A DNA stretch of 64,000 nucleotides. It comes from Ectocarpus siliculosus (taxonomy: Eukaryota > Sar > Phaeophyceae > Ectocarpales > Ectocarpaceae). A model generated the notes under the pieces. That model saw only the letters and a list, made by a program, of their open reading frames with translations, was not told where the DNA came from and made no database searches. Of this stretch, positions 94-59,800 are shown piece by piece. Position numbers and translations under genes: made by a program. Position 1 is the first letter of the stretch, and every line of letters starts with the position of its first letter. The DNA lies in NCBI GenBank assembly GCA_000310025.1, contig FN648462.1, positions 55,801 to 119,800 of the forward strand, in the 5' to 3' direction.

Positions 94-933
94 TACTCAT
101 AGTCGTGCATGCCGTAGTCGTTAGACCATTGACCTCGCATCCCTACAAAGCCGGGACGGAGCACGCCGGGTTCTCACCGGACCAGGCTCAGGACAGGGAG
201 GGGGTCTAAAAGCTGCATTGTCACTTCTTGCATGTTTTTCTACGAGTGCTCTGTCGACCACGACACGGTCCTTTCGAAATGCCGCACTGCTCTTCACCGC
301 TTTCTTGGCAACCTCTTCGATATTCAATGCAGGGGGTTGTTTGTTGTACGTAGGACGTTTGTAGAACGGTTTCACGAACAATTTGCTCCGAAGAAAAACC
401 GCAGCAACAACTAAGAACATCACTACCAAATGGATGGCAGGCAAGGGCAAGGCGGCGACGTCTAGGGGGAGGGGATCGGGGACACGTATGTACGACGATG
501 AGGAGGAGGAAGAAGAAGATTCGGACGATGGGCGGGACGTACGGAAGCGCCCGGCAGCGTCGCAGGTACAGGTGGAGTACGGAGAGGGTGTACTCATAGC
601 CGTGCATATGCCGTAGTCGTTAGACCATTGGCCTCGCATCCCTACGAAACCGGGACGGAGCACGCCGGGTTCTCACCGGACCAGGCTCTCACATCACCAA
701 GCGCGAAGCGTTCGTGAGGTATTCGGCGAGTCGCATGGAGGGTACTCTTCTTCCTGCTACATACGGGTGTTCGGCATCTTGTGCTTACTTCCGGAGGAAG
801 GGGGAGGAGCGTACTCATGTTTTGCATGCCCTACTGCTGTAGCTGTAAACCACGCGTTCCTCGACAGGACGGAGTACTGCTCCCGCTGGACCGATCACCG
901 ATGGCGAATCGTTCCTTGCTACTTTGCCAGCGT
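94..933 (-). repeat. C-tailed repeat units at the window's left end
   Basis: Read on the minus strand, three units of the dispersed C-tailed family are present: 94-190 (ending GAGTA and a 23-base C-run, 71-93), 591-800, and a second-subfamily unit 812-933 (with GCATGCAAAACATGAGTA). Positions 191-590 between them are unique and contain a weak open frame. A further G-run and ACTCATTT-like end near 934-995 may be a degraded fourth unit. Confidence 0.75.
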
Positions 934-3307
934 GGGGGGGGGGCAATTTTTTGCGTTTCACGGGGCGGGGGAGAGGGGACTCATTTCTTCGCGTTCCACG
1001 GGGCTACCACGGATCCTATCGGTCACGTTTGTCCACCATTCTCAAACGTCCTTCCTTCAAAATAGTTCATTCTTACGCAACAAAACCACGCTGGTAAGTA
1101 TCATACAGGTGGCGTGGTCGATAACATCAAATTTGAAGTGTTGCTTGCCTGATTGTTCTCCAAACCGCCGTGGTATCGCTCATGTTTTTAGTCAACGTAC
1201 CGGCGATCGAGAGTCGTTTTTTCTTGTCCTACCTCTGGTCTCCACTCCACCCCTCTCTCACCCCCGCAACTTTCCCTGTTCTCCCGTCCCTTTTTGTTTT
1301 GTTCTCCTCTCCCTTGTTTGTTGTCTCCCTCTGCCCAGGGGTCAACGCCTGGCCGAGGCGGCAAGCGCTTGCACCGCAGCATCACCGAGGATAGCAGCGA
1401 GTCGGAATAGTATTAACAAAAATCGGAACGGTTTTCAATGCGAAGACAACAACAACATAAGCACATGGGGTTCCGCTTTTGCGTTGTTGACGTTTTCGCA
1501 AAAGTGTCGTTGCGTGCCAGTGGTTTGTTTCTCCTCTCGGAGACGGTGGGATGGCTGCCGCTATACTCTCTGATGTGGTACCACAGGAGATGGGGTGATC
1601 GGCTTTTGATGGTGGGGAGGAGGTGATTCCCGGTTGAACACCGCACGATTCATGACGACAAGCTGTGTACGCGTGTTGCGTGTTGCTGGTGGGGGCGACA
1701 GAAGCAGTAGCAGTGTGTGGGAGAGACGAGCAGGAACATGTTGAGTCTCCACGTGCGGCGTCTTGGCTGCTGCATCTGCCGATGCGTCTTCCCATCTTCT
1801 GCCTAAAGCAGAAAATCGTGCTTTCCTCTCCTCTCTCAAGATACATTGGTCTTCTGCCCTCTCTTGAGGGTGTGTGGTTTCGACTCTGGTTCGGACGAGA
1901 GGCTGGGACTCCTCCTAGGATGCCGGGGGCGCAGCGGCGTGGTGACAAGTAGGGGGGCCGGCACTATGATGACCGCGTGGTCGTTGATCGGTCCCGCAAT
2001 CACACAGCTGTGTGCGGCGGGGTTTTATCGTCTTTCCCGATGGCGTTACGTTTTCGTGTTTGTTGTTAAACCGGGGAACCGTGGTGGTAAGTTTTTTGTC
2101 TTACGATCTGATCTTGGTCATGTATTGTGGAGGAAATGTTATCTGTTTCTGACCCCCTGCCGTAGCTCCTGTGGAGAACACAACACCGGCGTGAAAAGGG
2201 TAAGAGATTTCTGTGGCACCCTATCGTGTTAGCTCAGTGGACCACGCCATATCGCTGTGCTGCAGGTACACACGTGGTGGATCTTCATGCGACTACACAG
2301 GCCCGATGATCTTCGAGGAAGGCTATGCATATGGTAATCAGACTTGCAATGCCAACGGAAACACGAGCTTGCTCTGGGCAAACGATGATCAACAAACGTG
2401 TCCGTCCATGTTTAGTGTCGGAAAATCCACAAGAAGCAGCCCCTCGGTGGTGCTCGTGTTTCCGTCGGCGTGACCTTTCTCAGGTGTTTAACTGACGTGC
2501 TGTTGCGTCGATTCCATGTTTGTGTTTGGGCTATGGTTGAGACATGGGACATGAGAAGGGAAGGAGTACCACACACAAAACCAACACGCTTCTTCGTGTG
2601 AAAGTCATCCGTCCCGATCAGAATCGACGTTGTTGGCGATGCATGCGTTGCATAGACGAGAGGGCACCCTCTCGCTCATGACCTACCTCCTCTTCCCTTC
2701 TTTACTATTCTTCTCGTGGTCAAAAGCTATACATGTATGTAGCGAGCGCACGTCTACCGATGATACAGGCCGAAACGAAAGGGTAAAAAAAAAAGGGCAC
2801 CTCCGCGGGGAGAGCTTGTGGCTGTTGGGTTTGTTGCTCCAATGCATAACATGAACGTGGCCCCTAGCCAATCTCATTTTTTTCGTACGAAAACACAACG
2901 AACTCATCTCGATTCCAAGGGTAAAAAACAGTTCGAGATCATTTAGCCATGAATTCGTAGAATTAGCCAGTCTACAAGTTTGCTTCCTTCAGGCCCTTCC
3001 TTTCTGTTGCGATCGGGGAAAGCTCACAAGGCTGCCTTGCCCGATCCCCCAGGGTCGTACCTAACGCAAATCATTAATCTCCCACGTCCACGTCGTGCAT
3101 TGATCTCAGAACTCAACACACGCTTCAAAACAACTCTCCTATCCCCCCACGGCGCTGTTTCGAAAGGCAAGGACTATAGAACGGCTTTTCGCCAACATCT
3201 CCTACACACAAGCTTTACATTACTTACGTACACAAAGACGCCTTACACAAGAACACGAGGTGCCGGATGATCAACACTGTAGACTGCGCACAAAACACTT
3301 AAGTCTA
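934..3307. other. No gene recognised
   Basis: Beyond the repeats at the left end, only open frames with random-looking codon use are seen. An open stretch at 2264-2473 is preceded by a CAG, but it lacks the G/C-rich third positions of the real exons here. Confidence 0.5.
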
Positions 3308-6300
3308 TTAGGCGCGTTTCTCAGCTCGCCACTCCGACGACCATACAGAGACTGCCCGGCTAACGTTCTCCAAGATTTGGTAGCCCAGCAGCAAGAGGCA
3401 CCCCAAGGAGAAACCCAGCAGCCCCCCTGCGCACATCGGTAGCGGCCACGCCTGCAAGAAAGCAGAAATGTTGTTGTTGTAACTTTTTTTAACTGTTGTT
3501 GTTACCGCAATGACCTTGTTGTTGTCGTTGTTGTCGTCGTAGTCTTCGTCACCGTAATGCTGGAATGCTGCTGTCGCTGCTGCTGCTACCGTTGGGATAT
3601 TAATCATCGTCGTTGTTCTTGTGGTCTTTCGCCGCCTTTCATGTTCAATTCAAACATACCAAGAACGGCCACCCCGAACTCCCTCACGCAGCACGTCCTG
3701 TTTCGCTCGGAACCCCCTCACCTCACGCGGAGAAAAACACGCCACGCAAACATCACAAATAAACGCAGAGCGTACCTGAATCACAAAGGGTAGCCAACCT
3801 ACCCCACGCGTAAACGAAGCAATTGGGTGCAGTCGGCAAAACCTAATGGCGGCTGTTGTTACCTGCCATGGCTGCTCCCAATCCAAGCACAGCGGTATGG
3901 CCCCTAACCAAGCTCCAAGCACGCAGCATGCCGCTGGAACCATCGCACCCAGCTCGTGCAAGGCAGGCCTAAAAAAAGGGGAGGGGGGGGGGGGTACTCG
4001 TGTAGGCGCATGCCATCGTCGTTGGAGCATTGACCTCGATTTCCCTACGATGCCGGGACGGAGCGATATGCCGGGTTTTGGCAGTCCTTCACTATTTCGG
4101 CCCCCTTCCATAGGTTGGTTGTTCTTTGAATAAACGTATACATATATATGTATTTGCTAAAAATAGGTTTAGCGTCTTGCGAGATTTAGGCGCGGCGGTG
4201 TGCAAGAGGGAGAGGTGCCCTCTAAATCGTACGTACCTAGTGCCGCGGAGAAAGGCGGCGAAGGCCTCCAAGGGTCGGTGGCTCGTAACCGACACCGGGA
4301 GCGACGTGAAAGACGACATGAGAAGCGAGAACGCGGCCGTCTCGGGAGCGCGCCTGAAACGGACGCGTTGAAGCACGAACGAAAAAAAACTAAAAAATTA
4401 CAACTGACACGTAGGAAAAGTGAATTGGACATGAATAGGGGAGAGAAACAAACACTTGACGCGCGTCGCGGTTGTTGGGGGGCCGGGATAAAAGCCACAG
4501 GAAACAACCAAATGGATGCTAGAAATGATTTGTTGGCAACGTACACAGGGGTAACAGGAGCCTGCATGCAAAGCTACTGTACAGGGTCGGTCGGAGTGTC
4601 TATGAGGCTCCCTGGAGAACAGGGAAGGAGAAAATGGTGCAGTGGAAGCGGTTGAGAAGGAGGAAAGGACCGCCTTCGCGGGAAACTAAGGACCGCCTTC
4701 GCGAGAAAGTAAGTTAACGAGGAAATAGAACAGTGAGGAGGGGGTACGCAGACCGTATTCCCTAACCCTAACCCTGACCGAACTTCCCCGATTGTATGCT
4801 TTATCCAACACGTTTGCTGAATACAATACACCCACAAAGAAGGCTGCTGAGGAGAGGCGACGACAGGCGGAAGGAAGTGGACGGCAGGGACAATTGCGCT
4901 GCCAGCAAGGTGATAGATAAGCAAGGATCACAAAAACTCACGCACACTGGATACTCCTGGTCCGTCTTTGCTCTATCATGGGAGAACGTCAACAACAACA
5001 ACAACGTGAATATTTTTCTATATTTTTTTCTCTTTTTGGAATTGTTTTCGTACCGAAAGATTGGAGCGCCCAGCACGACCGCCACGGTGTGGATGACGGC
5101 CGCCCCCACCGCGAAGCCCACCGCTCCGCTAGACAAGCGCCGCCCCTGTAACAGCCATCGTTCGTGTCAACCGGTATTATCAAGTTGTTGTCTTCACGTC
5201 GCAAAAAGAGCCAATCAGGCTGAAGAGGTCATAGCTTTGGGTGGGGGTCCTAGCTTTGGAGGTCCTATGCATACGCTATAGAGGTCCTATGCACACTCAC
5301 ATTATAGCACAAACCTATCTCAAAGTGTGCCATAAAAAACGTCGTACATCAACAGCAGCCCCGCCGTTCAGCTTGATGGGGGCCAAATCGTGTCCGCGAA
5401 GTTAAAAAAGCACGGCTAGAGCAGAAAGAGTAGTACGAAAAACTCTCGTCTCCTACGACTCCGTCCGTCCCACCCTGTAGCTACTCAAGAGTTGATATTG
5501 TTCCACCCCGTACCTCCACTCGCATATCACTCAAGGAGACCCCTCCCCCCACACACGCACGCACGGCGGAACCCCCCCCGGGCTTGCCACCACGAAGATG
5601 GTGGCACAACCGCGAAAGAACGCTGTTTCACGGTTTCTCCAAGAGTAGCCGGGACGGTATTTCTCAATCTCGAAAGGAAACCGTGGTTGACGTGCGCGTG
5701 ACACCTTGTGGGGGAAGCGACTTACGGGGCCCCTCCCCTGCCCCCTCCTCCATGCGTGAACGCCCCCCCCCCCCGAACACAGTTTGACCAGCACAAGGGA
5801 GAGAGTATTGCCGCAGCCTTTGGAAAGGGATGCTCGCGTCTGTAGTTGACTACAAGAGACACCATGATACAACAATACGAGGATGCAGGAACCACCGTGC
5901 AGAACGAAGATCCATCCTGTTCCAGGAAGGGTGCTGAAATAGCCGTCTAGTGGATGACAAACCCACAGAATGGTGATCTCCTTGACCCCCCCCCCCCGAG
6001 TGCGCCCCCCCCCCCTCCTGCCACCGTCTTTCAAGCACCTTTGGCAAAGTGGGAAGGGACGATTGGCCATCGGTGATCGGGCCGTTGGGAATAATGCTCC
6101 GTCGTCTTCTCGAGAACGCGTGGTCAATCGTCTAACCGCTAAGGCATGCAAAACATATGAGTATGCCCTCCCCCCCCCTTCCCAACCCATTGGTCAATGG
6201 TCTTTGACACTCACGATCCCATCGCCCAGTCCACGGTGCTGTTCGGCACTCGCTGCCTCCATCCTCCTCCTCCTCCTCCTCAGCAGCGCCATGGTGGACG

Positions 6301-6327
6301 CCGCCGTGGCCGTCACGACAGCGGTGG
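3308..6327 (-). CDS. PIGF: PIG-F-like GPI ethanolamine-phosphate transferase subunit (5' partial)
   Basis: This is a polytopic ER membrane protein. In the known family, PIG-F partners PIG-O/PIG-G to add ethanolamine phosphate to GPI anchors. Coding exons with matching phases are 6215 to about 6327, 5054-5145, 4237-4353, 3863-3968 and 3308-3451, ending at TAA 3308-3310. The family signature is seen as the strings VVLGAPIF, FSLLMSSFTSLP and GAWLGAIPLCLDWEQPWQ, followed by a last hydrophobic helix (GGLLGFSLGCLLLLG) and a basic tail. The 6215 exon (hydrophobic stretch then an arginine run) fits the family layout, but its 5' edge (acceptor CAG at 6328-6330) is a guess. The first transmembrane segment and start codon were not found. 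The 268-bp intron at 3969-4236 holds a C-tailed repeat that forms the acceptor's pyrimidine tract. I am confident in the C-terminal four exons and less so in the N-terminal one. Confidence 0.72.
3983..4085 (-). repeat. C-tailed repeat unit at an acceptor in the PIG-F-like gene
   Basis: This is a divergent unit ending CGAGTA plus 12 C (G-run 3983-3994 on the plus strand). It carries the family words GCATGCC, CATTGACCTCGATTTCCCTACGA and GGGACGGAGC. It lies in sense with the host gene, with its C-run 13-25 bases from the AG at 3969-3970. Confidence 0.75.
6035..6178 (+). repeat. C-tailed repeat, second subfamily
   Basis: The unit ends GCATGCAAAACATATGAGTA followed by a C-rich run to 6178. It shares CGATTGGCCATCGGTGATCGG and AATGCTCCGT with copies near 812-933, 31449-31555 and 52044-52160. 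C-runs at 5989-6012 precede it. It is antisense to the PIG-F-like gene and lies just after the donor at 6214. Confidence 0.7.
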
Positions 6328-22772: not shown

Positions 22773-22816
<44 letters not shown>

Positions 22817-28800: not shown

Positions 28801-31800
28801 ACACTCACTTGGATCGTTCTTCCGTGCCGACGGAAGTGCTGGGCTCCTGGTCCACCATGTCCACCACCAGCTGAGATGCTTGGCTGGTGCGCGTTGACTC
28901 GTCTGCTGTGGTGCTCGTACGTGCTGCTGAGAGCAAGAGAGCAACTGGCTGCTGCTGAGGCGATGCGGAGGCTGTCATGTTGGCGCCTGTTGCTGCTCCA
29001 GCTCCTGCTGCTGTTAGATCAGCAGGAGCAGGAGTAGGAGCCTCTTGCGTAGAGGTGTGCGCGGGCCCAAAGAAGGAGGTGATCTGCTGTGGCGCCTGCG
29101 CTGCTGCAGTCGAAGCAGTTGTCGAAGGAGCGGAGGTACTTGCGGCTGCATTCTGCTCTGCCTGCACGTTCATGTTGTTGGGGGTCTCCATGCGGGGTGT
29201 TTCCCCGCACACAGATGCCGTGGCTGTGTGTGTGATTGCCCAGGGCAGATGCTGTCACGCCGGTGATAAAGAAGGAGGGGCCCCGTGACTATATGCGGCG
29301 TAACTAAAAATATCACCGGGGTGTGTTATCTTATGTACCCCCGGTGATAAATCGATGGTTTGTCAGAAGCGCCCAAAACTATCACCGGGGTGTCGTATTC
29401 TGTGGGACTGTGCTTTCTTATGTAGGTGTGTTATCTTGTGTCATATACGGTATCCTTGACAGTGTACCAGAATCATCAAGAGAGCCCCTGGTGTTGTTGG
29501 TGTTATTGTTAATCAGTCAGGAAAGGGGCCGCTGTGACAGGGATTCGTGGCAAACTGTAGCTCTATATAGACGGCCAACAAGAATGCTCGCCCCCTCACA
29601 GATACTTTCGCCCTTTACCCGGCGTGCTGCCGATCGACCTTTGCACCCTATAATGCTACTTACCGGTCTATCATTTTCTCCACCACAACCTCCCGCTGAC
29701 GGCGTCGGCAACACACTGGTCTGGTGCCAGTCAACCCCGCTAGCTGACGCTTTACAGACGGCAAGACACCACTCCCGTACCCGAGGACACCCCCCTGCAC
29801 CAGCCTTACCCCTGACCCATGGGGCTTCGATCGCGTGGGACAAGAAAAATCCCCAAATGCAGCAGCAGATGGGCTGACCCCGGTCCCCAACTTCACATGC
29901 GATTGTGCGTTCGATTCGTGTGCAGGTAACTCTCGCAGAAGCGTTGACTGGTTTCGTGCGGCCGATCAGCCTCGTTGATGGCCGGACGGTTTTTTTCAAG
30001 AGCAAGGAAGGGGAGGTCATCTCGCCCGGGGCCGTCCGGAAGTTGCCGGTGAGGGAGTGACGTAGTTTTTCGAGCCGGCGGTGAGGGGGAGGGGGGGGGG
30101 GGGGNNNNNNNNNNNNNNNNNNNNNNNNNNNNNNNNNNNNNNNNNNNNNNNNNNNNNNNNNNNNNNNNNNNNNNNNNNNNNNNNNNNNNNNNNNNNNNNN
30201 NNNNGGTTTTTATTTTTTTCCCCCACACTCTCCCGTGGGGGGGGTGGGAAACACAGTGTTTGGGTGCCAGTCAACCCCGCTGGGGGGCGTTTTAAAGGGG
30301 CCAAGACCCCCCTCCCGTACCGGGGGACCCCCCCCGCCCCCACCTTTCCCCTGGACCCAGGGGGTTTGGTTGGGGGGGGACAAAAAAAATCCCCAAAGCC
30401 ACCGGCAGGGGGGCGGCCCCCGGTCCCCAATTTCACAGGGGATTGGGGTTTGGTTTGGGGGGCAGGAAATTTCCCCAAAAGGGTTGACGGTTTTTGGGCG
30501 GCCGTTCACCCTTTTTGAGGCCCGGCGGTTTTTTTTCAAGAGAAAGAAAGGGGGGGTCTTTTCCCCCGGGCCCTCCCGAAATTTCCGGGGGGGGGGGGGA
30601 AGTATTTTTGCGACCGGGGGGGGGGGGGGGGGGGGGGGGGGGCGGTGCAGGGCCTACAGGACCGGCGAAAGTAGGGAAGTTGAGATCACACGGCCTTACC
30701 CCCCCCCCCCTCCGGAAGTACGGGGTTGGGTTTTCGTCGCTTGGCAACGACGTTGTAAAAGAAGCCAATTCACTTCGTGAACTCGGCAACCAGGTTGCCG
30801 TTTTTTTTGTTTTTTTTACCTCTGGTTTTTTATTTGGCGGTAACCATAATGGTGGTCGAGTAGATCATGTTGTGCGGGGTGGAGAAACCTCACTCCGCGC
30901 AAGGGGGATGATCGCACCACGTTGTGTTAAATTGGTGAAGCATCCTCGAGGCAGCTACACAGTGCTTATAACTGTCTCTGGAAGTGAAAGCACCAGAAAA
31001 TAAATTAAGTCATACGCAGCTGTCATCCGTACGCAAGGAAGTAAGCACAAGATGCCGAACACCCTTAGCAGGATGCAGCTCACCCTTCATGCGACTCGCC
31101 GAATACCTCACGGTGCTTCGCGCTTGGTGATGTGAGAGCCTGGTCCGGTGAGAACCCGGCGTGCTCCGTCCCGGCTTTGTAGGGATGCGAGGTCAATGGT
31201 GTAACGACTACGGCATGCACGACTATGAGTACACCCCCTCCGGAAGTACGCACAAGATGCCGAACACCCTTGGCAGGATGCAGCGAATCCTCCATGCGAT
31301 TCGCCGAATACCTGACGACGCTTCGCGCTTGATGTTGTACGTACTACAGCCTGGGCCAGTGAAAACCCGACGTGCTCCGTCCCGGCTATGTAGGAATTCT
31401 CAGTCAATGGTCTAACAACTACGGCATGCATGGCTATGGCTATGAGTACCCACCTCCCCGCAAAGTAGGAAGGGACGATTGGCCATCGGTGGTCGGTCCT
31501 GTGGGAACAATGCTCCGTTCTCTCTAACCGCGAAGGCATGCAAAACATGAGAGTACACCCCTCCCTGTCGAACGTGTTGTTCAGGGCTGCGGCATGCCTG
31601 TCGGAGAACGACAGAAGGGAGACTTGTATCTCCGGTTCGTGGTGGAATTCCCGAGCGAGGAGGCTTCTGCAGCTTGGAGCGAGGAAGAGCGAAAATCCCT
31701 CCAGGACCTACTTCCCCCAAAACCTAAGTTTCCGAAGGAGAAGCCGGTATGTCTGCTATTTCTCTCTCTCTCTCTCTCTGTGTCTGTTCAGTGTCCCTCG

Positions 31801-37348: not shown

Positions 37349-37417
<69 letters not shown>

Positions 37418-41662: not shown

Positions 41663-41695
<33 letters not shown>

Positions 41696-42112: not shown

Positions 42113-42145
<33 letters not shown>

Positions 42146-42328: not shown

Positions 42329-42359
<31 letters not shown>

Positions 42360-43304: not shown

Positions 43305-44886
43305 CGACGCGATCGATCGAGCTGGCTTCAAAGAGGAGCAAGAAAAACACAAACGACACATCTTACATTCGTTTAGTAGGGGAGGTTGGAAATATGTCAT
43401 CTTGGTTCGTCACAAATAATTGTATTGGATAAACTGGTATTGGTCATCTTGGTTCGTCACAATTTCTATTGGATAAAACTGTTGATTATTTTCGACTGCG
43501 TGGAAGACGATTGTGTAGCGACAGCACAAGCAAGCACGCTGTAGGCGGAGGAGGAAGTCTGCCTGTCTGTCGTACGCCCGACCGACGTGCATCGGCCGGG
43601 CCTTCGACAAAGCAAGAGAGATAAGCGCGAGACTTTTGAAGATTCAAGGCGTCCCCAGTATTTCTGTCCGCGGCAAAGCGCGGGTAAGAGGTACTTGTTT
43701 CTTTCTGGGGGTTTAGGCCATCTTTCATCGCCACCAGGTGTAGGTTTTTGGGTGGCAACACACGCTGTCTGCGTAGACGGTGTGGTTTTTGGGAATGTTT
43801 TACTGTGTGTGTGCGTGTGTATTTTTCTTGCATAGTCCATGTGTAGATACGTAAACAAAAGACTATCTATCCGTTCGAGATATTATGTACTACCACAAAC
43901 AGCAACCAGTCGGTCCTTGCGTGAACCTGCTTGACACTTTGCTGCGGGATGGGTGGGGAGGAAGCCGGGGCTGGCACGGTGGGTTTCTTTGTAGTTGGCT
44001 GGCCTGTTGCCCCTGGGAAGTTAGCACAGGCTGAATGAATGCTGCGGTAGGCACGTTGGTTGGCCCTGCTTCCGTGGAACATCAGGCGCAAAGATAAGCA
44101 CCGCGGGTGGGTCTGTCTGGTGTAGCATAGAAACCGTCAGCGACGGGATGACCACGCAAGAGCGAAGAGACGCAAGCACGGAACGTGACACGTTGTGAAC
44201 AAAAAAGTAATTCAAACGAAGATATTTTTCTTGCATTTGATGGCACGGCAGGGTGGGCAAGGCGAAACACAAAAACACAAAGAAAGCTACGTTGAAACCT
44301 ACTCTTGAATCCACCTCCTTACGCTGTGTCCCGCTGTATTTCGGGAAGAATGTCGAGCAGGGAATGCGCCTGACTGATTGAGCCCATACCATCAATCAGG
44401 CCACCACGTGACTTGAGTTGTAGGGGCGGCAAGAGGAACAGACGAAGGATCGCTGCATCGACAACAACAGAACAGAAGAAGTTGTTGTCCAGCAATAAAG
44501 ACCGATGTTGAACACATATATATATCAAGTTGTCCTGGTATTCGAGACAAAAAAAAACAAATAGTATGCATAGTCTATAGACTAATATGGGGGTTCGCGA
44601 GACGAACACAAATAGATACCGCAAACACAAGCTGCTCGCGTGAATGAATGCACGCAGCAATGTCTCTCACTCGTTTAACGGTTGCTTCTTAGCAGGTGAT
44701 CCTCCCGAAAACCAAGTGAAGATGCAGGGAGAGATAACAAAAACACAACTAACTAAGTTATCGTCAGGCTGTGATCCCGGAGGACTGACGATGACTGACT
44801 GTCTGTGTCTTCCATACTACTCTCGCTCGCTCGATTTCCAATCAATGTCAACATCAGATGTCGAGCTCTCTCTTTCTCTCTCTCTT

Positions 44887-45155
44887 GGCGTGTTCCCTCT
44901 CAACTCTTCACCCAAATCCCCACATTCATTCGAAGAGTCGTCCGCGGTTGATTTTCTCTCGATGAAATCAGTCATATGACCAGCGTGTTCCCTCTCAACT
45001 CTTCGCCCAAATCCCCACATTCATTCGAAGAGTCGTCCGCGATTGATATTCTCTCGATGGCGTGTTCCCTCTCAACTCGTCGCCCAAATCCCCACATTCA
45101 TTCGAAGAGTCGTCCGCGATTGATATTCTCTCGATGAAATCAATCATGACCAGCG
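44887..45155. repeat. Three-copy tandem repeat, period 95 then 77 bp
   Basis: Copies beginning CGTGTTCCCTCTCAACTC at 44889, 44984 and 45061 each contain CCCAAATCCCCACATTCATT and GAAGAGTCGTCCGCG. Neither period is a multiple of three, so this is unlikely to be coding. Confidence 0.85.
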
Positions 45156-46032
45156 CAGCGTCGGCGTCCCACGAAAGGGTACCCACCTCGCTCACCCTCC
45201 CTTTTCATGGCGCTCCCTACTGCTCGTCTGTCGGAAACTGCGACTCCCCCCGCCAGCAATAACGAGTGTCACTACGCTAACGACACCACTACTCACTGTC
45301 CACGACCAACCGTCAGACAGACCGAATCCTCGTGGTTCTAAGATCCCCCCGGCCCCGACAGAAGCTCGCCCCGCCCCCTCCCCCCCGGGAGAGAGAGAGG
45401 GCCTGGCGAATTGTTGTTCATGGTCGAGAGAGAGGCGGTGAAAAACATGAATGAATGGTGATGGGGAGCGGAAAGGTAAAGCGACCCAGGGTTGTGTTTC
45501 CTGCGAGCCAAGCCAAGCTTGAGCGCGCGAGTGCCACACCACTAGTTACCATGCAATCCGCCTCACGAGGAACATGTACGTTGTACATGCATAGAATACA
45601 CCTTGTGCAAGATCTCTACTTACTGCGAGCACGCCGATCCTTTCAAAACATGAACACGCAGTAGTAGTATTTATTACCTGCCCAACACAGCAATTACCGA
45701 AAATGCCATGTTGCACAAGTCGCTAAAGGGCTGGATAAATCTGGCGGCCTAAAACACGCGAGCACCGATTCTCTAATTTCATGAAAAATTGACTCTTCAA
45801 CGATGACGCCCCTGCACCAACTGGGGATTCCAAAGCGCCACAGAGAGTGGACAATTAGGAGCGCTGACGTTTGGGTCCACTGGCTGGTAACGGACAAAAA
45901 AAAAAGCCTGTTTCGGCTCCATGTGGGCTAAAGGGCGTGTAGCGGTAGAAGGAGACAAAAACACCCGTAGCGATCGTTTATTCTTAAACAGCGTATTCAA
46001 GGCTGTTCCAGTACATTACTCAGTTGGCGTTC

Positions 46033-46201
46033 GCCCCCCCCCCCCCGGCGATGCGACTCGCCGAATACCTCACGGAGTTTCGCTCTTGGTAATGCGTGAG
46101 CGAACCTGGTCCGGTGACGAAATCCGTCCCGGTCTCGTAGGAATGCGTGGTCAATGGTCTGACAACTACGACATGCATGGCTTTCATGGCTTTGATTCCA
46201 C
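46033..46201 (+). repeat. Truncated C-tailed repeat unit
   Basis: A 14-base C-run (46033-46046) is followed by the inner family sequence (GCGACTCGCCGAATACCTCACGG ... GGAATGCG ... GCATGGC). The distal end is diverged. It lies downstream of the dehydrogenase gene and antisense to it. Confidence 0.7.
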
Positions 46202-47025: not shown

Positions 47026-47125
47026 NNNNNNNNNNNNNNNNNNNNNNNNNNNNNNNNNNNNNNNNNNNNNNNNNNNNNNNNNNNNNNNNNNNNNNNNNNN
47101 NNNNNNNNNNNNNNNNNNNNNNNNN
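47026..47125. other. Assembly gap (100 N)
   Basis: A placeholder lies 3 bp beyond the stop codon of the dehydrogenase gene, so its 3' UTR is lost. Confidence 0.99.
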
Positions 47126-47128
47126 TCA

Positions 47129-50100
47129 TCATGCCTCCACCTTGTCAAACTGCACGATGGTCTTGGCGGGCTGTCCCTCGTGCGCGATCCTACCAAGTGC
47201 AAGCGCGCGAGGGATGGGGTTGGGGGGGTGGGGGTGGTGGTGTCCTCATAGTCGTGCATGCCGTAGTCATTAGACCATTGACCTCGCATCCCTACAAAGC
47301 CGGGACGGAGCACGCCGGGTTCTCACCGGACCAGGCTCTCATATCACCAAGCGCGGATGGGGTGTGTGGGGGGAAAACTCATGTAACCGTCGTCGCTAGG
47401 CCATTGACCTCGAGTTCCTGCAATACCGGGCCGGAGCGATATTTTCGACATACACCATTGTTGTGAGACCATTGACCAGGCGTCCTCGAGAGGACGGATC
47501 ACTGCTTGTTCCCACAGGACCAACCATCTTGGGGCATGCGTGTCAAGTGGAAACCCGGCACTAGCCAGAGGCGAAGTTGGGGGTTGGGGGAGAACAATCA
47601 TCCTGACGCTTTGTGGAGACACATCGTTGGATTATTGAGAGAGGGGACCCCTGTGGGGTCATCGATCAGGCTGAGAGAGAGACCCCAACTCACCGGTAGA
47701 TGGTTGTCAGGAGCGGGAACTTCCGGGCGCACTTCTTCTTCTTGATCACGCCGAACGCTTCGACCGCTGTGCTGGGCCCCTGCAGCTTCATGCCCCCCAA
47801 TTCCTCCGCCTCCAGCTGCTCCCAAGAGCGCTTACCGCTTTCGCGGGCGAACATCTCCGCGCATCTTCGTTCCCCAAGCGCAAAAAAAAAAGACAGAAAC
47901 AACAAAATAGAACGGGTAGTCTCTGTTTGATGGTGTATGTATGTTTCCTAAAAGAGAAGCGAAAATTGTCGTAATGTTACAAGGCCAAAACGCGTTCATC
48001 ATGGCCACCTCGCCCTATAACCCTTTTACGACACACAGGAAAATCGGAGCTGAGAAAATATCACAAAAAGATAAAAAAAGCGCCTGCTGATTGGACGATG
48101 ATTGACGGTCCCTGACCTGCACACATGGAGAAATCAGCGTCCGTAGCGTCCCCACCTGAACCGTCTCTACTCTTAAAGGCCCTATCAAATGGCCCCTCAA
48201 ACCCGATCGTAGCGAGGGGCCATTTGATAGGGCTTTCAAAGAACAACTGGCGAGAGCGCGGTAAACTGAGCACAAAAGGAGGTTTTTCAAGATACTGTTC
48301 TAGAGAGAAAGCGAGACCCCGGCGTTTCAAGCTCCAGGATGCCCGGGTGCCCCTTTCGTCGGTGGGTGGAGTGTTCCTTCGAGTTAGGCCCTGGAAGCGC
48401 TTTTTGCCCAAGCACAGAGTCTGACGCGGCGCAATGACGATTTTCCTGGACGCGTATGCATACGAGAGTTCGTGTTCGATGCCGCCATGGCGGTAGGAGC
48501 GGGCTCATGCCTGCACGACACTCCGCCAACGGCTCTACCAAGAGGTTTGACGCGCGATCAGCGCGTCCAAGCCGCGAAGGAACACCCTGGGCTCTGCGGA
48601 GTCTATCTGGCGGAGGTGATTGCTGGGTGTGCTTGGGCAAAAAGCGCTTCCAGGGCCTAACTCGAAGAAACACTCCACCCACCGATGAAAGGGGCACCCG
48701 GGCATCCTGGAGCTTGAAACGCCGGGGTCTCGCTTTCTCTCTAGAACAGTATCTTGAAAACCTCCTTTTGTGCTCAGTTTACCGCGCTCTCGCCAGTTGT
48801 TCTCTAAATTCCCTATCAAATGGCCCCTCGCTACGATCGGGTTTGAGGGGCCATTTGATAGGGCCTTTAAGAGTAGAGACGGTTCAGGTGGGGACGCTAC
48901 GGACGCTGATTTCTTCATGTGTACAGGTCAGGGACCGTCAATCATCGTCCAATCAGCAGGCGCATTTTTTTCTTCTTTTTTAAACATATTTTTGTGATAT
49001 GTTGTCAGCTCCGATTTTTTTCCTGTGCGTCGTAAAGGGGTTAACCCCCTGCCTGAAAGTCATCCCTACGGAAACCACGGAGCCTCCTCAAATGCCCCAC
49101 AAGAGATGCAGGTATTTTAGTATAAGTTCTGGCAGCAGTGCTTTAGGTCGTGTAGCACGAGCGTTTTCGTCCTTGCTGGCTGTCGTCACTCACCGGCAGC
49201 CAAAGACTTTTCGGCCACTCAGAGTTCACCCACACCGGTGAAAAATGTGCGGGCACTCACCTCTTTCTCTGTGTGTTTGTAACAGTTCTCTCTCTCTCTC
49301 TCTCTCCATCTATGACAGAAACAGTTATTTCAGAACATATACTCACTGAAAGGCTACCCGTTCGAGATAACACCACAGCAGTCGAAGAGATGATGATATA
49401 GCAATACTTCCAATGAATGGGGAGAGGAACTGCTGGGGTGCTCTGCTTCTCTGTTTCAAGCCTATACACAGCAGGCGCTGGTACAAACAACAAACAAAAA
49501 TAGCTATCTAGCTCGCTGTGGTGGAAGGCTAGCTGGAGACTCACTTTCTGTTGCGGCTGGCGCCATAACAGGTCGTCATCAAGTCCCCTATCCCGCAGCT
49601 CTCTAGGAACGCCCTCGAAGAGGCCGTCGCGTCGAAGGCGCTCGCGTCGCAGCGTAATCTGCCGCCGGCCGAGGACGTCCATCGACAGCAACCAACCACG
49701 ACGGGGGATGGGACCGGAAAAATCAAGGAGGCGTTATTCCCGTTTTTTCACAACGCGAACCATGACTCTTTCGTTCTCTTGGGAGTAGCCTTGATGAGGC
49801 CATTCATCGATAGCGATCACACGGGGGAATGTGACAATGGGACCGGAACACACAAGGAGGCGTTATTCCCGGTTTTTCACAACGCGCAACCCCGACTCGT
49901 CGTTTTCTTGCGAGTAGCCGTAATGGGGGTCGTGCTAAGAATCCCAACGTTTCGCTCCCATGGCAAAAAAAAACCAAAAAAACATGCATCTCATAGTATC
50001 CCTTCACATGCATCTCCCGCACTACCGGAACCTTACTGGCACACGTTACTTAGCATATCTCCGTTTGACTCTTGAAATATTCTACGCATCGCTCTCGCAC

Positions 50101-53100
50101 ACTCGTACACGCATATGCAAACGTACCTCTGTGCGAAGACCTGCATCTCGGCGAGGCCTGTGCGGACGATAGCCGCCTTGGTGTTTCCCCCGTACCCCAG
50201 GCCGTCGCAAAAGGCCGCCCCTAGCGCCACGACGTTCTTCAGCGCGCCGCACAGCTCGACCGTGGCTGAAGCGTTTCGCACCACCTGTCCAGGTCAAAAA
50301 TGAGAGATAAAGCGCGGGGGGGGTGGGGGGGGGGTCGGCACATTGGTTCGCGTTCGTAGGCCTGTGCGTTCTGATTTTCAATGCTCCCATCTACGGCCGG
50401 ACAAGCGCACCGTCTCTGTCCCCACGCACGAAAAAACGCAACATTCAATCGAAACCCCGTACCCAGTTCATCATGATACGCCATGTTTGCAAATTTTCGC
50501 AGTCGGTGGTAACTGTAGCCTCGTTCCTCACCGTAACGCGGAACGTAGGGCGGTTGAAGAGGAGCCTCAGGGTGTCGGTGTCGGCGTCAGCCGTTACCGA
50601 AAGTCCCGCCGCTCTGCAAGACGCGTAGTCCTCGTCGGCAAGGCCCAGCTGCATGAAAAAAAAAAAAAAAAATGAATCAACGTTTTTTTTCTCGAGCGGG
50701 GTACGTATGGTGTACAAGTAGCGACAACCTCTCAGGGGACAATACCGACCCCTGTCAAGCCTAAAATAGTAGCCCTGAGGGCTATGGATGGGTATCAGAA
50801 CTAGTCCCACTCGGCATTTTGATGTGACGTACACTCTTGACAGGAGGTGAGAAAACATCAAGATCAGCGGGGAGGGGCCAGTAGAAGAGGAAGAGAGGTG
50901 GAATGGAGGGGGGGAGAAACAAAACCAAATCTCCCCAACACCAGGAAATTGTACCGAGTAAGTGGCGCCGTGTCCGCTCGTTAGCTCGTTCGGCTTGTGG
51001 AGGCTGGCGGCAGAGACTTACCGCAAGGAGGGCCCCTCGCTTTCGATCAAACGGAACTTCAGGCCATTCTTACAAGCTGCTTAGAAGATATGCACCGCAC
51101 CAGAACAATCTTTTCCGTTCAAGATAACTATTTAGCCGTTCGAAGAGATATGCTGAAGGCGTTGCATAATCTACAGCACAAGCGTGGGCTGAGGGGCACC
51201 TGCTGGGAAACTGCACTTGTTGACGTTGTTTTGAAGTCTCAACACTGAACAGGCGGTGATGCCAGCTGGAAAAAAAAACTTGTAGGCGAGGAAAACAAAA
51301 TGAAGAGATCATCCCTACCGTAGACTCGCAAAGCTCATCGCGGGCGACCTCGTTCGCGACGTTGGCCCCCATCAACACGCTCACGGGCACGGCGCCGCAA
51401 AGGCCCTCGCGGATGTGATCCGAGATAAGCTTGAGCCCGTCGGGCCCCTTGTCCACCCCCTTGATGAGCGAGACCGCTCGGATCCTGGCGCAAGCAATTT
51501 GTCGGGGGGGGGGGGGGTACTCATAGTCGTGCATGCCGTAGTCGTTACACCATTGACCTCGCATCCCTACGAAGCCGGGACGGTGCACGTCGCGGTATCA
51601 CCGGACCAGGCTCACATCACCAAGCGCGAAGAACCGTGAGGTATTCGGTGAGTCGCATGAAGGGTGCGCTGCATCCTGCGAAGGGTGTTCGGCATCTTGT
51701 GCTTACTTCCTTGCGTACGGATGACAGCTGCGTATGACTCAATTCATGTTCTGGTGCTTTCATTTCCAGAGACAGCTATAAGCACTGTGTAACTGCCTCG
51801 AGGATGCTTTACCATTCTGCCTCGAGGATGCTTTACCATTTTAACACAGCATGGTGCGATCATCCCCCTTGCGCGGAGTGAGGGTTCTCGACCCCGCACA
51901 ACATGATCTACTCGACCACCATCATCATGGTTACCGCAAAAAAAAAATAACAAGAGGTAAAAAAAAAACGGTAACCTGGTTGCCGAGTTCACGAAGTATT
52001 CATGTTGTGCATGCCATAGCGGTTAGACCATTTGACCATAAGGGGGGTTACTCATGTTTTGCAAGCTACTGAAGTTAGACCACGCGTCCTCGAGAGGACG
52101 GAGCATTGTTCTCCCACAGGATCGATCACCGACAGGCCATTCGTTCCTTGTCGGTGGTTGCGTTTACCATTCGATCGCACAAGACAACGACCAAGATACC
52201 CGCGGGATACCGACCTGGATTAGAGCACAAACTAAAAGTTTCAACTACGTACACAGAAACAATATCAGGAGCAAAAGTTCCAGCAAGCACGTCTTACCTG
52301 CGGCCGCCCGGTGCTACACCTGCGGTGCCCCCGCTCTTGGTTAGTCCAAGCGCCTCGGCCACCGTCGGTAGAACCCGTCCCAGGAACTGCGCAACGTTTC
52401 GTTCGTTTTGTCGTAGTTTGGTGTCTTCATAAGAAAGGGTCATGACATCGTTCGTAAATGTGGCGGTTGTCGTTGTTGACACTCAAGTATTCTTGGCAAG
52501 TTGACGGACAGGAGCGAGAATGGTAGGAGCAGGGGGGCGACGCCGATTCGCGCGTGTGGTTTGTCGCTTCATGTCTACAACATGGTCACAACGTTTGTCG
52601 GACTTGTTGTACAGCCACGTTTTCCATTTTACGCAGCCGCTCGTCGCGAGGTTCACGAACGAACACGTTTCTCTGGGACGAATGACGTCATAGCGTCTTC
52701 CGCTCAATTGCGCCCCCCTCCCTTGCGCTCGTTAATGTCTTTTTTGTTTCTACAAACTTTTGTTCCGGCCTCCGGGATCAGCGGACCATCAAATCAAAGT
52801 TACATACGAAGGGCCTCCGAGTAGTACGTAGTGTGGCCACGACGGTGTTTCGCGGTCCGATCCTGCTTCGATCCATACTCTCTTCTTTCGTCTCTTTCTC
52901 GTGCTCTTTCACTCTCTCTGTCCCTGTCTCCCTCTCTCTGTGTCTGCATCCCTAGCTCCCTAGTTTCTTGTCCCTCTCCCTGCCCCCCCCCCCCCCTCCC
53001 CCTCACCAACAAACAAAAAATAACCCAAAGAACTCCCCTGCGTACATGTATCCAAACACAAAGCCGACCCGACGCAGACCTGGTGGGGCAGCACGAAGAT

Positions 53101-54072: not shown

Positions 54073-55634
54073 CTGGATGGTGGTGGTGTTGTTGGGTAGA
54101 AATAGGGTATGAGTGCACCGAAAAACGCTGCAAGCTAGGTTCAAAGGGTGTGACAGCAGTAGGGGTTGCAAAAAGAGAGCACGCCGGGTTTCATTTTGGG
54201 TGTTGCGCACGAAGCCCCGGACATCAACTGAAATAATGTTTTCGGCTCTCAACCTGTTTCTCTGCAGCTATGCCTGCCTCTGTTAGGCATTGGTTCCTGG
54301 GTGACCCGTCGAAAACGGGTGCCAAAGAGCGCACCAACGCGCTGATCATCGCCATACATACGCAGCGGTCACGACAGCCTCACGAGATACCTAACCCAAG
54401 CACGACCTATCTAACAAGCGCCAGACGAGAGTCTCTCAATGTGTCAATGTTGCGGCAGGTCTCTGTTTTTTTTTGGGCTGGCTCTCCACGTGTGGCCTGT
54501 CGGACGAAACGTACGTACGTGTCACAGAGAGGTATGCCCACGGTAGAGCATGTACCAGCGTACCAGCCCCAACCATGAGAGCCTACCTATGCTATGTACG
54601 CCGTATTGTTCTTTCCCTCTTTAGCGGCCACGACAGTGGGCAGGGTCGTTCTGCATTGAACGCGCACACAAGCCTGAAACGCAAAAGAAGGAATTCGAAA
54701 CCTGGAAAAACAAAACGAAAAGCTACCTGTCGATCTTTCTTTGCTCGACATAAAAAAAAAAAGAAAAGAAGAGTCGCAAGCGCAATCTTTAGTCTCAGTG
54801 GACTACAAGTTCATCTGACGAGCCCCCGAGACTGATTTCGAAACAAAACACAAAAATACATAGCAAGAACGACGACAAACCACAAGCTGCTGTCTAGGAA
54901 TAGCTACAACAACGGGAGCCGCACGCAGCAGAAGCGCCCTCTCCACACCCATCACCACGCAAGTGCGATGCGGTTGCTCTGCTGATCTGTACCCCTAACC
55001 CGCGGTGACGCGGTGGCTATTCGTTCGAGCATACAACACACGTGCAAAGAACAAATGAGGCGTGCACACGCGAAACCCTCCCCCCCCCCAGCCATGATCC
55101 CACACGCTTCCGCCCAGCCCGGCACCAACATGAGCAGTGCACAGACGCGGGGCCGAGAGCCGGTCGCTCGAAGAGGGCAGAGGGGGCGCGCACAAGATGC
55201 AAGATCAGCGTTCATGTGCGCGCCGCATACGGGTGGTGACGTGTCCTTTGTCCATTTTCTAATTTCTAACGTTTCATTCTTCGTTCCCTTTCCTCTCTCT
55301 CTCACCGATTCATCCGCATGGGCAGACGCGATTCCCGCTCCGGTATCAGCCATGACTTGTAGCGAGGTGTATGGGCGATCGTATGCAGTGTTGTTTGGAG
55401 GAGAGGGACGGGCTTGTGTGGCGCGGAAGGAGGACAAGCTGTTCGAGAACTAAAAACTTTTGGATGAGATCTCCGAGTGACGAGGAAAGAAAAACGGAGA
55501 TCCTCTTCGGAGATCCTCTTCGGTTAGGCCGCACTGTCGACCGTCCACGGGAGTCCGCAACGGCAGAGACGGCGATGCATTAGTGGGCAACCCGAGGCAG
55601 CGAGACAAGAGGGGAGCGCCTGTTCCCCGATACG
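54073..55634. promoter_or_regulatory. Divergent spacer between the dehydrogenase and SMYD-like genes
   Basis: Both start codons face outward from this 1.56-kb region, so it holds both promoters. No motif or further gene could be supported. Confidence 0.5.
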
Positions 55635-56767
55635 ATGTCTTTGGCGTCGACAATCGAGGTTCGTGCAGCCGGTGCCGCGGGGAACGGGTGCTTCGCGACG
55701 TCTAGGCCCGGAGGAGGGCTGATCAGGGCCGGGACAGCTGTGCTCCAGGGAGCGCGGCCCATGGTGTGGGCGTTGAAGGACGAGCACGAGGGACGCAACT
55801 GCAGGTCGGCTGCTCTCCAACTGCTTGTGTCCACTTTTGTGGCGCCCCCGTGAGGGCGACCTGCTTTTTGGCGTGCAATGACCCTGCTCACCCCGGTCAC
55901 AGCAGTAAACGGCACAACAAGCGTTGATGTATGGTGCACAGCAGTGTTCATGTTTTACCGTGGGACGAAAAATGTTCATGTTTCCTGAGGCGCGGCGTTT
56001 GTTCCTGTTGGCCATGTTTGATTTGTGACCAGCAGTGTGTGACCTCGCAGCAACGCATGGAACACGTGGGTGTCGATGCCGGAGAGAATAGACTCGATGC
56101 TTCCTGTTTAAAGTTGCAATTTTGTTTCCTCCTCCTCCTCCTCCTCCTCCTCCTCCTCCTCCCCACGTACTGCCGTGTGGTTGGAGGCAAGGGCACCAGC
56201 CCCCGCCTCTGTGGTACTGCTGTCGTACTGGTGATTGGCCGGGTGTGTACATAAACGCGTCGTTTTCGGGGACGCGCTGCTGCACGAAATCCCTTTCGTT
56301 TCGTGTGTCGATACGCCCGGCCTGGCGGCCCTGTGTCCTTTGTCCTGCACGAAGAAATCTGCCGGGTGTTGGCATGGGCATTGACCTTCCGTCTCGAATT
56401 TTTTCATGTTCGTTGTATGCAGGTCGCCCCGGTGGTCTAGTTGGTATCCTCGAAACCTTCTAGAGGTCAGGTCAGGGGTTCGAATCCCGGCGTAAGCGAG
56501 TTTTTCTTGCAAAGTGAGTTTTTCTCTCGCTTCCGCTTCTGGCCTAGTGGATAGCGCTAGTTCGTGTGTACACAGAGGGAAGAGAGTGCTGAACTCTTCT
56601 CTCATTAAAAATTGAAGGCAAAGTACCGCAGGAGGGGAGGGTAGAGAGAGGCTCTTCTGTGTGACCACGGGTTGGAGTAAACGGCACTAGTGCTGTGAGC
56701 GCTGATTTGAAGTGAAGAAAAAAAAGGAAAAAAGAAAAAAGAAAAAAAAAAATCCGCCAAGAATAGC

Positions 56768-56812
<45 letters not shown>

Positions 56813-59800
56813 ATAATGTGCGTGTAACATTGAGTCCCCCTCCCTCGACCCCTCCCTCGATCTCGGCTTCTTTCCGTCGCCTCCGATGGCCGTCAACGAT
56901 GCCGCCGCTCTGGACACCGAACCAAACCGCAGGCGCTGTCTGCAGCCCTCCCACCTGTCACCCAGACTCGTGCCCGAGGCGACACCACAAGGAGGGACGT
57001 CTCCGCCTCACCCTCGCAGCTGCGCCAAGTGCCTAAGATCAGTCCTGTGCTCTCGGTGCATCACCGCGGCCGACTCAGCTGAGGTTGGTGGTGATGGTGG
57101 TGGGTGCTCTCACGGAAGCCTGGAGTGTGATGCCCTGGTGCGTCTGTCGGCTTTGCAACGCGAGCAGCCGGACCTGGCCAGCTCCCTGCTGGGTGGCAGC
57201 ACGGTTTACCTCAGGTGGGCGGCCCTCTTGGCTTGGTTTGTTTTTTCTGAACATCGACCTCGCTTCCCGACTGGCCAATTCAATTTCGAAATTACAACGT
57301 CACCCTGCGTGGGGGACGGGGGGGGGGGGTGTACTCATAGTCGTGCACGCCGTAGTCGTTTGACCACTGACCGCATCCCTACAAAGCCGGGACGGAGCAG
57401 CGTCGGGTTATCACCGGACCAGGCTGTAGTACATACAACACCAAGCGCGAAGCGCCGTGAGGTATTCGGCGAGTCGCATGAAGGGTGCTCTGCATCCTGC
57501 TAAGGGTGTTCGGCATCTTGTGCTTACTTCCTTGCGTACGGATGACAGCTTCGAATGACTTAATTCATGTTATGGTGCTTTCACTTCCAAGAGACAGTTG
57601 TAAGCATGTTGTAACTGCGTCGAGGGTGCTTGACCATTTTAACACAAGTTGGTGCGATCATCCCCTTCGTGCGGAGTGAGCGTTCTCGACGCCGCACGTT
57701 ACACACGTTATAATCCAATCGACAACCATTATGGTTACCGCAAAAACAGAACAAGGAAGAAAGAAGAGGTAACCTGGTTGTCGAGATCATGAAGCGATCG
57801 GCTTGTTTTACAACGTCGTTGCCAAGCGACGAAAACCCGGCGGGACGGAAAAAAACAAAAATCGCAAAAATGTTTAGCCTTGGTTAAGGAACAGTATACA
57901 CGTCTCAAATGGATCACCACACACAACGGCAGGCGCTTCGACGTGGCAGGTTTGTAGCAATGCGCTTCGGGCGCAGTTTGGGATATTTCCGGCCACTGTT
58001 TCCTGGCGACAACCGCATCATATAATGATCCTCTACCTTCCGGCAATCGCCAATCCTACAACAGCGCCCCTTCCGCGTAGAACGCCCCAAACCCGCATGC
58101 CAGCGGCACTGGTCTAGGCGTCGTGCTGCTTCTGGCGAACGGTGTATTAGTGGCGAAAAAGAAATCTTCTGGGCAGGTGTGTCTGTGTCGTCCATGCTGT
58201 GCTCACCTTCTCGGACACTCCTCGATCCCGGCAGGCTTCTTTTGCAGCTGCTCGCCATGCGCTCGAGGGAGCTCGGAACGAACTCAACTGCAGGGTCGGC
58301 GGCGGCTCGGGCGGGGGATGCGACGGTGAGTAGACAGCACCGGACGGTAGCTCGTGTTGCGGGTCGTGTTTGGATTCGGAGTTCGTGCTTGTTTCAAGTT
58401 TAGACCGGCGGCGGCATATCCGTATCGGTGTCAATTTTCCTGTTCTTTTTTGTCGAATACGAGCAAGATCGTTGGTGGTGCCCCGGCTCGAGCCACAACC
58501 AGCACACCGACACCCTGCCAACCCTTTGACTTATTTATGACCCCCCAAAAGCTATCGCCAACATCACCAGGCGTACCTTAGCGACATGGACGATCTCGAA
58601 GACCACCTGGACGACCTCCTCGACGGTGGCGAGATGGAGGCTAGGATGGGAAACACAATTGGAGCCGCTAGGCTGGTGGCGCCGGCGGCTTGGAAGGCGA
58701 ACCAGGACGTCTGCTCCGAGTTTCTCGGGAAGCTGTAAGGAAACTCCGAGGGGTGATAAAGAAAGCTTGCCATCATCACCAACCAACCACGTGTTTAGTA
58801 AACCAAGCATTGAGACGCCTCCGGTTGAGTCGTGCCGCACATGTGCGCCGCGGGAGGTTTCGATGCGTCCAGTTATTTGCAGAAGATGACGGCCGATCGA
58901 CGGCACCGTCGCTCTCGTATTTCCTCGGGACATCGGCGGTTCTCGAGACCGTCGCTTTCAACAAACAAAATAGAAATGAGACTCTCGACCGCGAAGCGCG
59001 TTCAAAATGCCCCGATACATTTGCATTGCACCACACCTATTTCGGCCGATATGGGCGTACGTTAGTTTGTTGTTTCCATTGTTTGTCTAGGGATGCATGC
59101 TCCCACGTCGCTACGGGTAGCACTTGTACAAAAAGCCTATCCCATGCTTCCCCCAATGGTCAAACGCCCGAGGCAACCTCCCCCCCCCCCCCCCCAGGAG
59201 GCGGCTCGTGCTATGCCTCCCGGAACCCCCTCTCCTGTCCCGCCCAAAACGTGGAAAATACCTGGGCCCCCGTTATGCCCCGCCCTTGCGACCAACAATT
59301 GCCAAGATGAGCGCTCATCCTGCGGCGTCTGCTCCCTCGAACTGCTCGTGGAGCAGGGAACACCCCCCCCTCCCCTCAAGCTTTCCCATCCCCACGTTCG
59401 CAGGGCACCCCTTCCCGCCCGAAACGGACCCCTCCGACAACGAACTCCCTGCACATCCTTAGGTACTGCAACTCCATGACGATCGGGAAAGCGGGGTTTT
59501 CCGCGCCTCTCGCCGGGTGGGGTTACTGGAGCGGGATCCGGGGCTGCCTGTACTCGGACTTCGGGGTGGGCCTGTACCCGGCGGGCGCCATGTTCAACCA
59601 CTCGTGTCGGCCCAACTGCTCGTGGCGCACCAACCGCTCCGGGGAGCTGTGCGTGGTTGCCGTGGAGGACGTTCCTGCCGGCTCCCAGCTGTTCATCTCG
59701 TAAGGGGCGGTACATGTACCGAGTTTTCGTTGTGAGGAGGGGGGCGTGAGTTTTGGGATGTGGTCGGGTTTTTAGTCAGTTTATGGGCTGTAGGATTGGT

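Follow-up and report, generated by a model that had tools for sequence, protein, structure and literature searches.

A C-run-bounded repeat family of Ectocarpus siliculosus as a very probable LINE-dependent retroposon inserting into C-runs

A dispersed repeat family bounded by runs of C was analysed in a stretch of 64,000 nucleotides (nt) of Ectocarpus siliculosus (contig FN648462.1, positions 55,801 to 119,800; hereafter, the window) and in the genome from which it comes. A brown-algal source agrees with the EsV-1-7 cysteine motif (PF19114), a domain that has proliferated in brown algae according to PMC12477816: the genome gave 880 candidates, and all 150 that were scored exceeded the cut-off, against none in 14 control genomes. 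The family is, with high probability, a non-autonomous retroposon similar to a short interspersed nuclear element (SINE), copied by the reverse transcriptase (RT) of a partner long interspersed nuclear element (LINE) that has a common 3' terminus with it, and landing in C-runs. The C-run is the target site, and it lies on both sides of a copy as part of the target-site duplication. An earlier note on the window knew of no standard class with this layout; the class is that of LINE-dependent retroposons with 5' truncation and target-site duplications.

In the genome searched (189.46 Mb, 492 contigs), the 3' motif GCATGCN{3,24}GAGTACNCCCCC was found in 1405 + 1303 occurrences (reversed control, 0 + 0), and the exact 19-mer of the SINE 3' end 1789 times, with NNCCCC next in 1497 of them. 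Across oriented copies the 3' end is constant, GGCATGC...GAGTAC(A/G/C) followed by a C-run, and the common end recognized earlier in the window (GCATGC...GAGTAC plus C-run) is thus seen there and genome-wide. A 490-bp query from the window gave at least 49 matches (40 scored of 2874 candidates), and the 3' motif without the run is present in 28 of the 30 loci that this body query retrieved. L-numbers denote loci cut out of the genome, the first 30 by the 490-bp query and L031-L060 by a search for the RVT_1 domain; L007, a full-length SINE-type copy of 515 bp, served as alignment reference, along which "ref" positions are counted. For most tests, 60 of the 2708 3' ends were taken as they were listed, 40 from the head of contig C1 and 20 from that of C2, which avoids choosing favourable cases. 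This sample is biased by construction on its 3' side, where both the motif and a C-run were required, nothing being selected on the 5' side, and by best match it comprises 48 SINE-type and 12 LINE-type copies. Complete copies are 89-97.5% identical to L007, for which reason we infer fairly recent activity of the family. Assembly gaps adjoin 13 of the 60 copies (N within 60 nt of the 3' end in 6 and of the 5' break in 7), which has practical weight: copy counts are therefore probably too low. Contig C9 stops a few bases beyond such a C-run, and the copy at L026 likewise lies beside a gap. Some of the weakest matches in the sample are related 3' variants such as GCATGCGTTTACA; this third variant, GCATGCGTTTACA...GAGTAC, in L072, L083 and L090 suggests a further family with the same tail.

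The partner was found among the loci retrieved by RVT_1 (150 scored of 1041 candidates, 30 cut out). Seven of these 30 form a group with a 756-bp RT match, and six of the seven (L047, L054, L057-L060) carry the 3' end of the repeat approximately 1.1 kb downstream of the RT; L049, the remaining one, contains 1307 N. Their terminus reads GGTCTAACCGCTAAGGCATGCAAA(A/G)CAT(A/G)AGAGTACG plus a C-run, a tail motif present 158 + 163 times genome-wide. One LINE copy has an open frame of 1247 codons, which begins at an assembly gap and is closed by a TAA within the common tail. The LINE protein P0001 contains Exo_endo_phos (59-284) and RVT_1 (626-877), and among solved structures it is closest to LINE-1 ORF2p (E 8e-28; R2, E 8e-15). 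The partner, probably an RTE-X element, has both an apurinic/apyrimidinic endonuclease (APE)-type endonuclease and an RT, and in six of seven loci this autonomous LINE ends as the SINE-like element does. Another copy, in L063, is 4.8 kb long, a 2043-N gap included, and has a C-run plus GGGCGAATTC on either side; L064, fetched as a possible LINE copy, was left out because it ends before any tail. Since the SINE and LINE references are similar only near the 3' end (SINE 466-502 of 515 at 84%, then GAGTAC), the former, as judged from these alignments, is not a simple internal deletion of the latter. A second abundant LINE group in L031-L060 has an RT match of approximately 860 bp and several internal C-runs.

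The 3' boundary was examined in the window, since the 60-copy sample had been chosen by its 3' motif. All 10 SINE-type pieces end there at ref 496-515, that is, within the last 19 bases, and begin at ref 13, 20, 64, 320, 320, 372, 402, 419, 436 and 446. Similarly, 22 of the 48 sampled SINE-type copies are complete and 26 begin inside the element, at positions 109-471; five of these internal starts coincide with assembly gaps, leaving 21. Boundaries that differ between copies had been named earlier as evidence against the family: they do differ at the 5' end, but not at the 3' end, and a variable 5' boundary with a fixed 3' one is as expected for target-primed reverse transcription. A short and abundant element might also be the remnant of a DNA transposon, either a miniature inverted-repeat transposable element (MITE) or a Helitron-like one, but such an origin has hardly any probability in view of the LINE-like 3' end, the variable 5' end and the variable length of the duplications described below. 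Neither DNA-transposon ends nor MITE terminal inverted repeats were found in L007, the one copy examined, and both were rejected; its end-inversion score was 6.0, against a shuffled mean of 5.9, as anticipated by the remark in the earlier note that inverted ends are absent.

A C-run of at least 5 lies within 25 nt upstream of the 5' break in 23 of the 30 truncated copies with readable flanks (21 SINE-type and 9 LINE-type), and a G-run of at least 5 in none of the 30, the background being 4.1% of random 25-mers of the window with such a C-run. A pre-existing defined repeat at the insertion point is thus a strong preference, not an absolute one. Duplication was tested in 47 of the 60 sampled copies, 13 being dropped for gaps or short flanks. 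The matched extension beyond the C-run averaged 2.23 nt, compared with 0.73 after shuffling (sd 0.20, maximum 1.51, 2000 shuffles), and 6 of the 47 copies had at least 10 matching bases, where shuffles gave a mean of 0.185 (maximum 3). The duplications vary in length, each comprising the C-run plus 0 to about 15 bases, so that a C-run stands on both sides of such a copy; clear examples are L108 (C-run plus ATGGTCGACAT), L093 (C9A7(G/T)ACCATAC), L015 (C10AATTTAGCG) and L011 (C7TACACAGCG). A filled site and its unfilled paralogues were found within the second LINE group, in which GCCAATT-C-run-AACGCT-GCACC or a close variant occurs in 21 of the 30 loci L031-L060. L031 reads C10-AACGCT-AAGTAC-C15-AACGCT, whereas in 20 others of the host element both the C-run and AACGCT (or a close variant) are single; L031 is what a very short insertion of the last six bases of the family would leave, with the run and six bases duplicated. 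In L096, the C-run separating two SINE modules is occupied by a LINE, and the SINE halves on either side are both retained.

Thirteen copies with a clear duplication allow the two runs to be compared (L069 was left out). The 5'/3' lengths are 13/11 in L071, 9/9 in L093, 5/7 in L097, 10/8 in L108, 5/15 in L116, 12/10 in L121, 16/13 in L125, 7/7 in L011, 14/19 in L013, 10/10 in L015, 12/5 in L017, 10/9 in L063 and 10/15 in L031; the 3' run exceeds the 5' run in 4 copies, equals it in 3 and falls short of it in 6. If the RNA ended in a C-repeat, as other RTE-type elements do in other simple repeats, and the element brought its C-run to unspecific sites as a tail, a longer 3' run would fit, as in L116, L031, L013, L097 and the window copy 57318-57838, and so would the family-specific 3' repeats of green-algal RTEX elements (in the portion of Table 3 of PMC3747384 considered). 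This reading is improbable, given that 23 of 30 truncated copies also have the run upstream, that the 20 unfilled paralogues of L031 have it as well, and that the 3' run is not systematically longer. Moreover, the tail of lepidopteran RTE elements lies between the duplications, according to the part of PMC2887409 drawn on here, while the C-run lies inside both, which speaks against its being only a tail. Thus, of the three explanations proposed earlier for the C-runs, target preference and duplicated target hold, and the third, a poly-C tail of its own, can be dispensed with. The RNA probably ends in a few C's, which would assist priming, but no long tail has to be assumed.

Insertion into C-runs also bears on how copies are arranged. 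Another member of the family lies within about 100-120 bp of 12 out of 97 flanks (43 upstream, 54 downstream), on the same strand in all 12, so that the head-to-tail chaining already seen in the window recurs in the sample. These flanks represent 10 separate events, because L096 is chained on both sides and L113/L114 are one junction, and the count leaves out a match of L076 to its own 5' module. Chance would account for approximately 0.1-0.2% per flank (arithmetic from about 2700 ends in 189 Mb). Both the excess and the single direction are explained by a strand-specific target that each insertion renews. Head-to-tail chains and 5' modules separated by C-runs could likewise result if C-runs recombined or were amplified by slippage, carrying the repeats along as satellite-like units with no retrotransposition; nevertheless, such a spread is made very improbable by the scatter of copies among differing flanks, by 5' truncation to varying points while the 3' end stays fixed, and by duplications that reach beyond the run.

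Several observations weigh against retroposition into C-runs as set out above. Seven of the 30 truncated copies have no upstream C-run. No base matches beyond the run in 25 of the 47 copies tested, so for many copies the run is all that the duplication rests on, and among the six with long matches, that of L069 may stem from a module next to it, and L097 is situated within a (CCCCA)n repeat. An earlier test in which C-runs were collapsed, later replaced by the anchored one, gave a weak signal: a mean of 11.9 versus 11.2 (26 of 30 loci usable), with scores of at least 16 in 5 of 26, where 8.6% was expected. The 6-nt insert of L031, one base off GAGTAC, is too short to be assigned beyond doubt. 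Finally, a consensus fold of the 3' end from 14 sequences contained no pairs, and three tails folded individually showed no advantage over shuffled sequences (z 0.5, 0.7 and 1.4).

By analogy with L1, with C/G in place of A/T, the retroposon would be mobilized in trans by this LINE as follows. The LINE endonuclease would place its nick in the G-strand, at the border of a C-run in the genome, and SINE or LINE RNA would pair through its C-ended 3' terminus with the freed 3' end of the G-run. Reverse transcription would then proceed toward the 5' end, often halting early, and a cut of the other strand 0 to about 15 bases beyond the run would duplicate the C-run together with those bases. Each insertion would end up between two C-runs, both new targets on the same strand, and head-to-tail chains would follow. 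A more extended proposal, for and against which we see equal chances, is that of a self-seeding system, consisting of a homopolymer-C-targeting LINE of the APE type (probably RTE-X) and its non-autonomous rider, in which insertions duplicate their own same-strand landing pad, the C-runs of 5' modules are also targets (as in L096) and C-runs may join the G-ended 3' end of the cDNA to the target. If so, insertion would give rise to insertion sites and to one-way arrays.

The element itself measures approximately 515 bp and was seen with none to two extra 5' modules, each of about 67 bp. Complete copies begin with a C-run plus GGTGTTTGCC, their 5' end reading C-run, GGTGTTTGCCATCGGG...AACAAGCC, and further modules separated by C-runs may precede it. 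Of the 22 complete copies of the sample, a script credits 10 with no extra module, 4 with one and 8 with two; it misses one module of L076 owing to a spacing cut-off, and the region sampled extends 650 bp upstream of the tail, so that higher numbers would escape notice. L011 has two extra modules, and the module motif GGTGTTTGCCATCGGGNTTGGG occurs 693 + 640 times genome-wide. The single fold of one 5' module was no better than shuffles. Rfam gave no match in the window and five in four complete copies, none at gathering score, so no credible small-RNA head was seen; a tRNA scan found 0 genes. In L007, the one complete copy scanned for boxes of RNA polymerase III (Pol III), there were two A-box-like matches and no B-box match. 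T-runs of 4-14 are present on the sense strand within the first 250 nt in 22 of 22 complete copies, reaching at least 6 in 21. Pol III stops at such T-runs, and these long internal runs argue against its transcribing the element; transcription by Pol II, which may start in the 5' modules, appears more likely. With neither a Pol III promoter nor a small-RNA-derived head found, the element is SINE-like and not a SINE in the strict sense.

The picture of a dispersed family with a dozen or more copies bounded by C-runs was confirmed by 17 BLAST rows in the window (10 SINE-type and 7 LINE-type, one of the latter overlapping a SINE-type row), with C-runs at the edges. The copies are as follows, percentages being identities (SINE-type, to L007 where so stated).

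71..189, minus strand: SINE-type 3' fragment, ref 419-515, with a G23 run (sense-strand C-run); 99% to L007
590..792, minus strand: SINE-type copy, alignment from ref 320; 90% to L007
810..943 (match 810-929), minus strand: partner-LINE 3' end, LINE ref 3633-3753, with a G10 run; 82%
3983..4077, minus strand: diverged SINE-type 3' fragment with a G12 run; 81%
6005..6178, plus strand: partner-LINE 3' fragment 6036-6163 between C-runs 6005-6015 and 6170-6178; 89%
30706..30722, plus strand: left copy of a 17-bp target-site duplication, CCCCCTCCGGAAGTACG, read directly; partner at 31234-31250
30723..31233, plus strand: nearly complete SINE-type copy from about ref 13, without the first bases of the 5' module; 95% to L007
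31234..31250, plus strand: right copy of the 17-bp duplication, CCCCCTCCGGAAGTACG, read directly
31242..31459, plus strand: older SINE-type 3' half, ref 320-510; 83%
31460..31565 (match 31460-31556), plus strand: partner-LINE 3' fragment; 77%
46034..46177, plus strand: diverged SINE-type fragment after a C13 run; 78%
47233..47521, minus strand: one-strand chain of a SINE-type 3' fragment (47242-47355), a SINE-type piece (47387-47437) and a LINE piece (47463-47521), by BLAST
51504..51997, minus strand: SINE-type copy from ref 64, G14 run at 51504-51517, by BLAST
52002..52149, minus strand: two partner-LINE 3' fragments directly 5' of the copy 51504-51997 and on its strand, by BLAST
57318..57838, minus strand: SINE-type copy from ref 20, G12 run at 57318-57329, CCGTCCC flanking both sides, by BLAST

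The C-run upstream of the older piece 31242-31459 was the target of the copy 30723-31233, in which 6 open reading frames of at least 50 amino acids are listed. Three copies had been described as full-length in the earlier note; none is, their alignments to L007 beginning at 13, 64 and 20. Nor is TCCGGAAGTACG the common start that it was taken for: CCTCCGGAAGTANGCACAAGATG is found only twice in 189 Mb, both times inside the window, while GGAAGTANGCACAAGATG occurs 792 + 739 times, and CCGGAAGTAC has two occurrences in the window, both on the plus strand. As the start of a short subfamily TCCGGAAGTACG was rejected, the string being the 17-bp target-site duplication at 30706-30722/31234-31250. The window contains 49 C- or G-runs of at least 8. 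Nine are no more than 25 bp from a copy and on the agreeing strand; no run on the wrong strand comes that close. The remaining 40 are not so placed beside a recognized copy; targets are therefore plentiful elsewhere. Other features of the window are a nested inverted repeat at 48073-48970, perhaps a foldback element (a 214-nt arm pair with 97% complementarity and a 142-nt pair with 96%, enclosing a centre of 211 nt), and a tandem repeat at 44886-45160 with units of 77-95 bp, 81-98% alike. An N gap at 30105-30204 is followed by abnormal G/C homopolymers, and a 300-nt repeat (29665-29964/30205-30504) is only 74% alike; region 29665-30640 is probably a poor-quality assembly.

Among known systems, mouse L1 carries tandem arrays of 5' monomers in varying number. 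The 5' modules of the family likewise vary in number, but they measure approximately 67 bp, are separated by C-runs and have a putative promoter role. Mino, Kibi and Waldo are microsatellite-specific LINEs. Further ones are Togen, at (TG)n, and some HERO families (in the part of PMC4640811 considered); the resemblance is insertion within a simple repeat, whereas here the target is a homopolymer C-run, the endonuclease is of the APE type and a SINE-like partner uses the same target. With SINE/LINE pairs (as treated in part of PMC3747384) the family has in common the 3' end held jointly with a LINE, 5' truncation and duplications, and it differs from them in showing no credible small-RNA head (four copies), no B-box (L007) and T-runs in 22 of 22 copies.

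The closest counterpart is RTEX-N1_Ec32 of Ectocarpus sp. 7 (Dinatale et al. 2025; PMC12477816), a non-autonomous element of approximately 600 bp with more than 6000 copies in a 200.2-Mb genome. According to the main text considered, its 3' end is conserved with RTEX-1/RTEX-2_Ec32, the origin of its 5' region is left undetermined, and it is placed with LINEs since some classifications require a Pol III promoter for SINEs. Here, the element has 515 bp plus modules, its exact 3' end is present at least 1789 times in 189 Mb, and a LINE encoding endonuclease and RT has the 3' end in common with it. Because size, abundance, partner and host match so closely, the family is very probably RTEX-N1_Ec32 or its ortholog, matched by description, not by sequence. 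C-runs, target, duplications and 5' modules are not mentioned for RTEX-N1_Ec32 in that portion of the main text, so what seems to be added is the C-run target, a duplication that includes the run, same-strand chaining and 5' modules with C-runs between them; this accounts for a very abundant repeat for which the published description, in that portion, offers neither a target nor a reason for the C-runs. A C-run-targeting LINE was not apparent from titles or abstract openings in a PubMed Central subset, and the green-algal RTEX 3' repeats in the portion of Table 3 considered are not poly-C (PMC3747384). A LINE endonuclease that selects G/C-runs, together with a C-ended RNA, would be a simple system for the study of target choice, and one-way arrays would find their explanation in a target renewed by each insertion. 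RTE elements are described as inserting without sequence preference (PMC2887409, in the part considered), whereas the LINE of this family appears to prefer a C-run.
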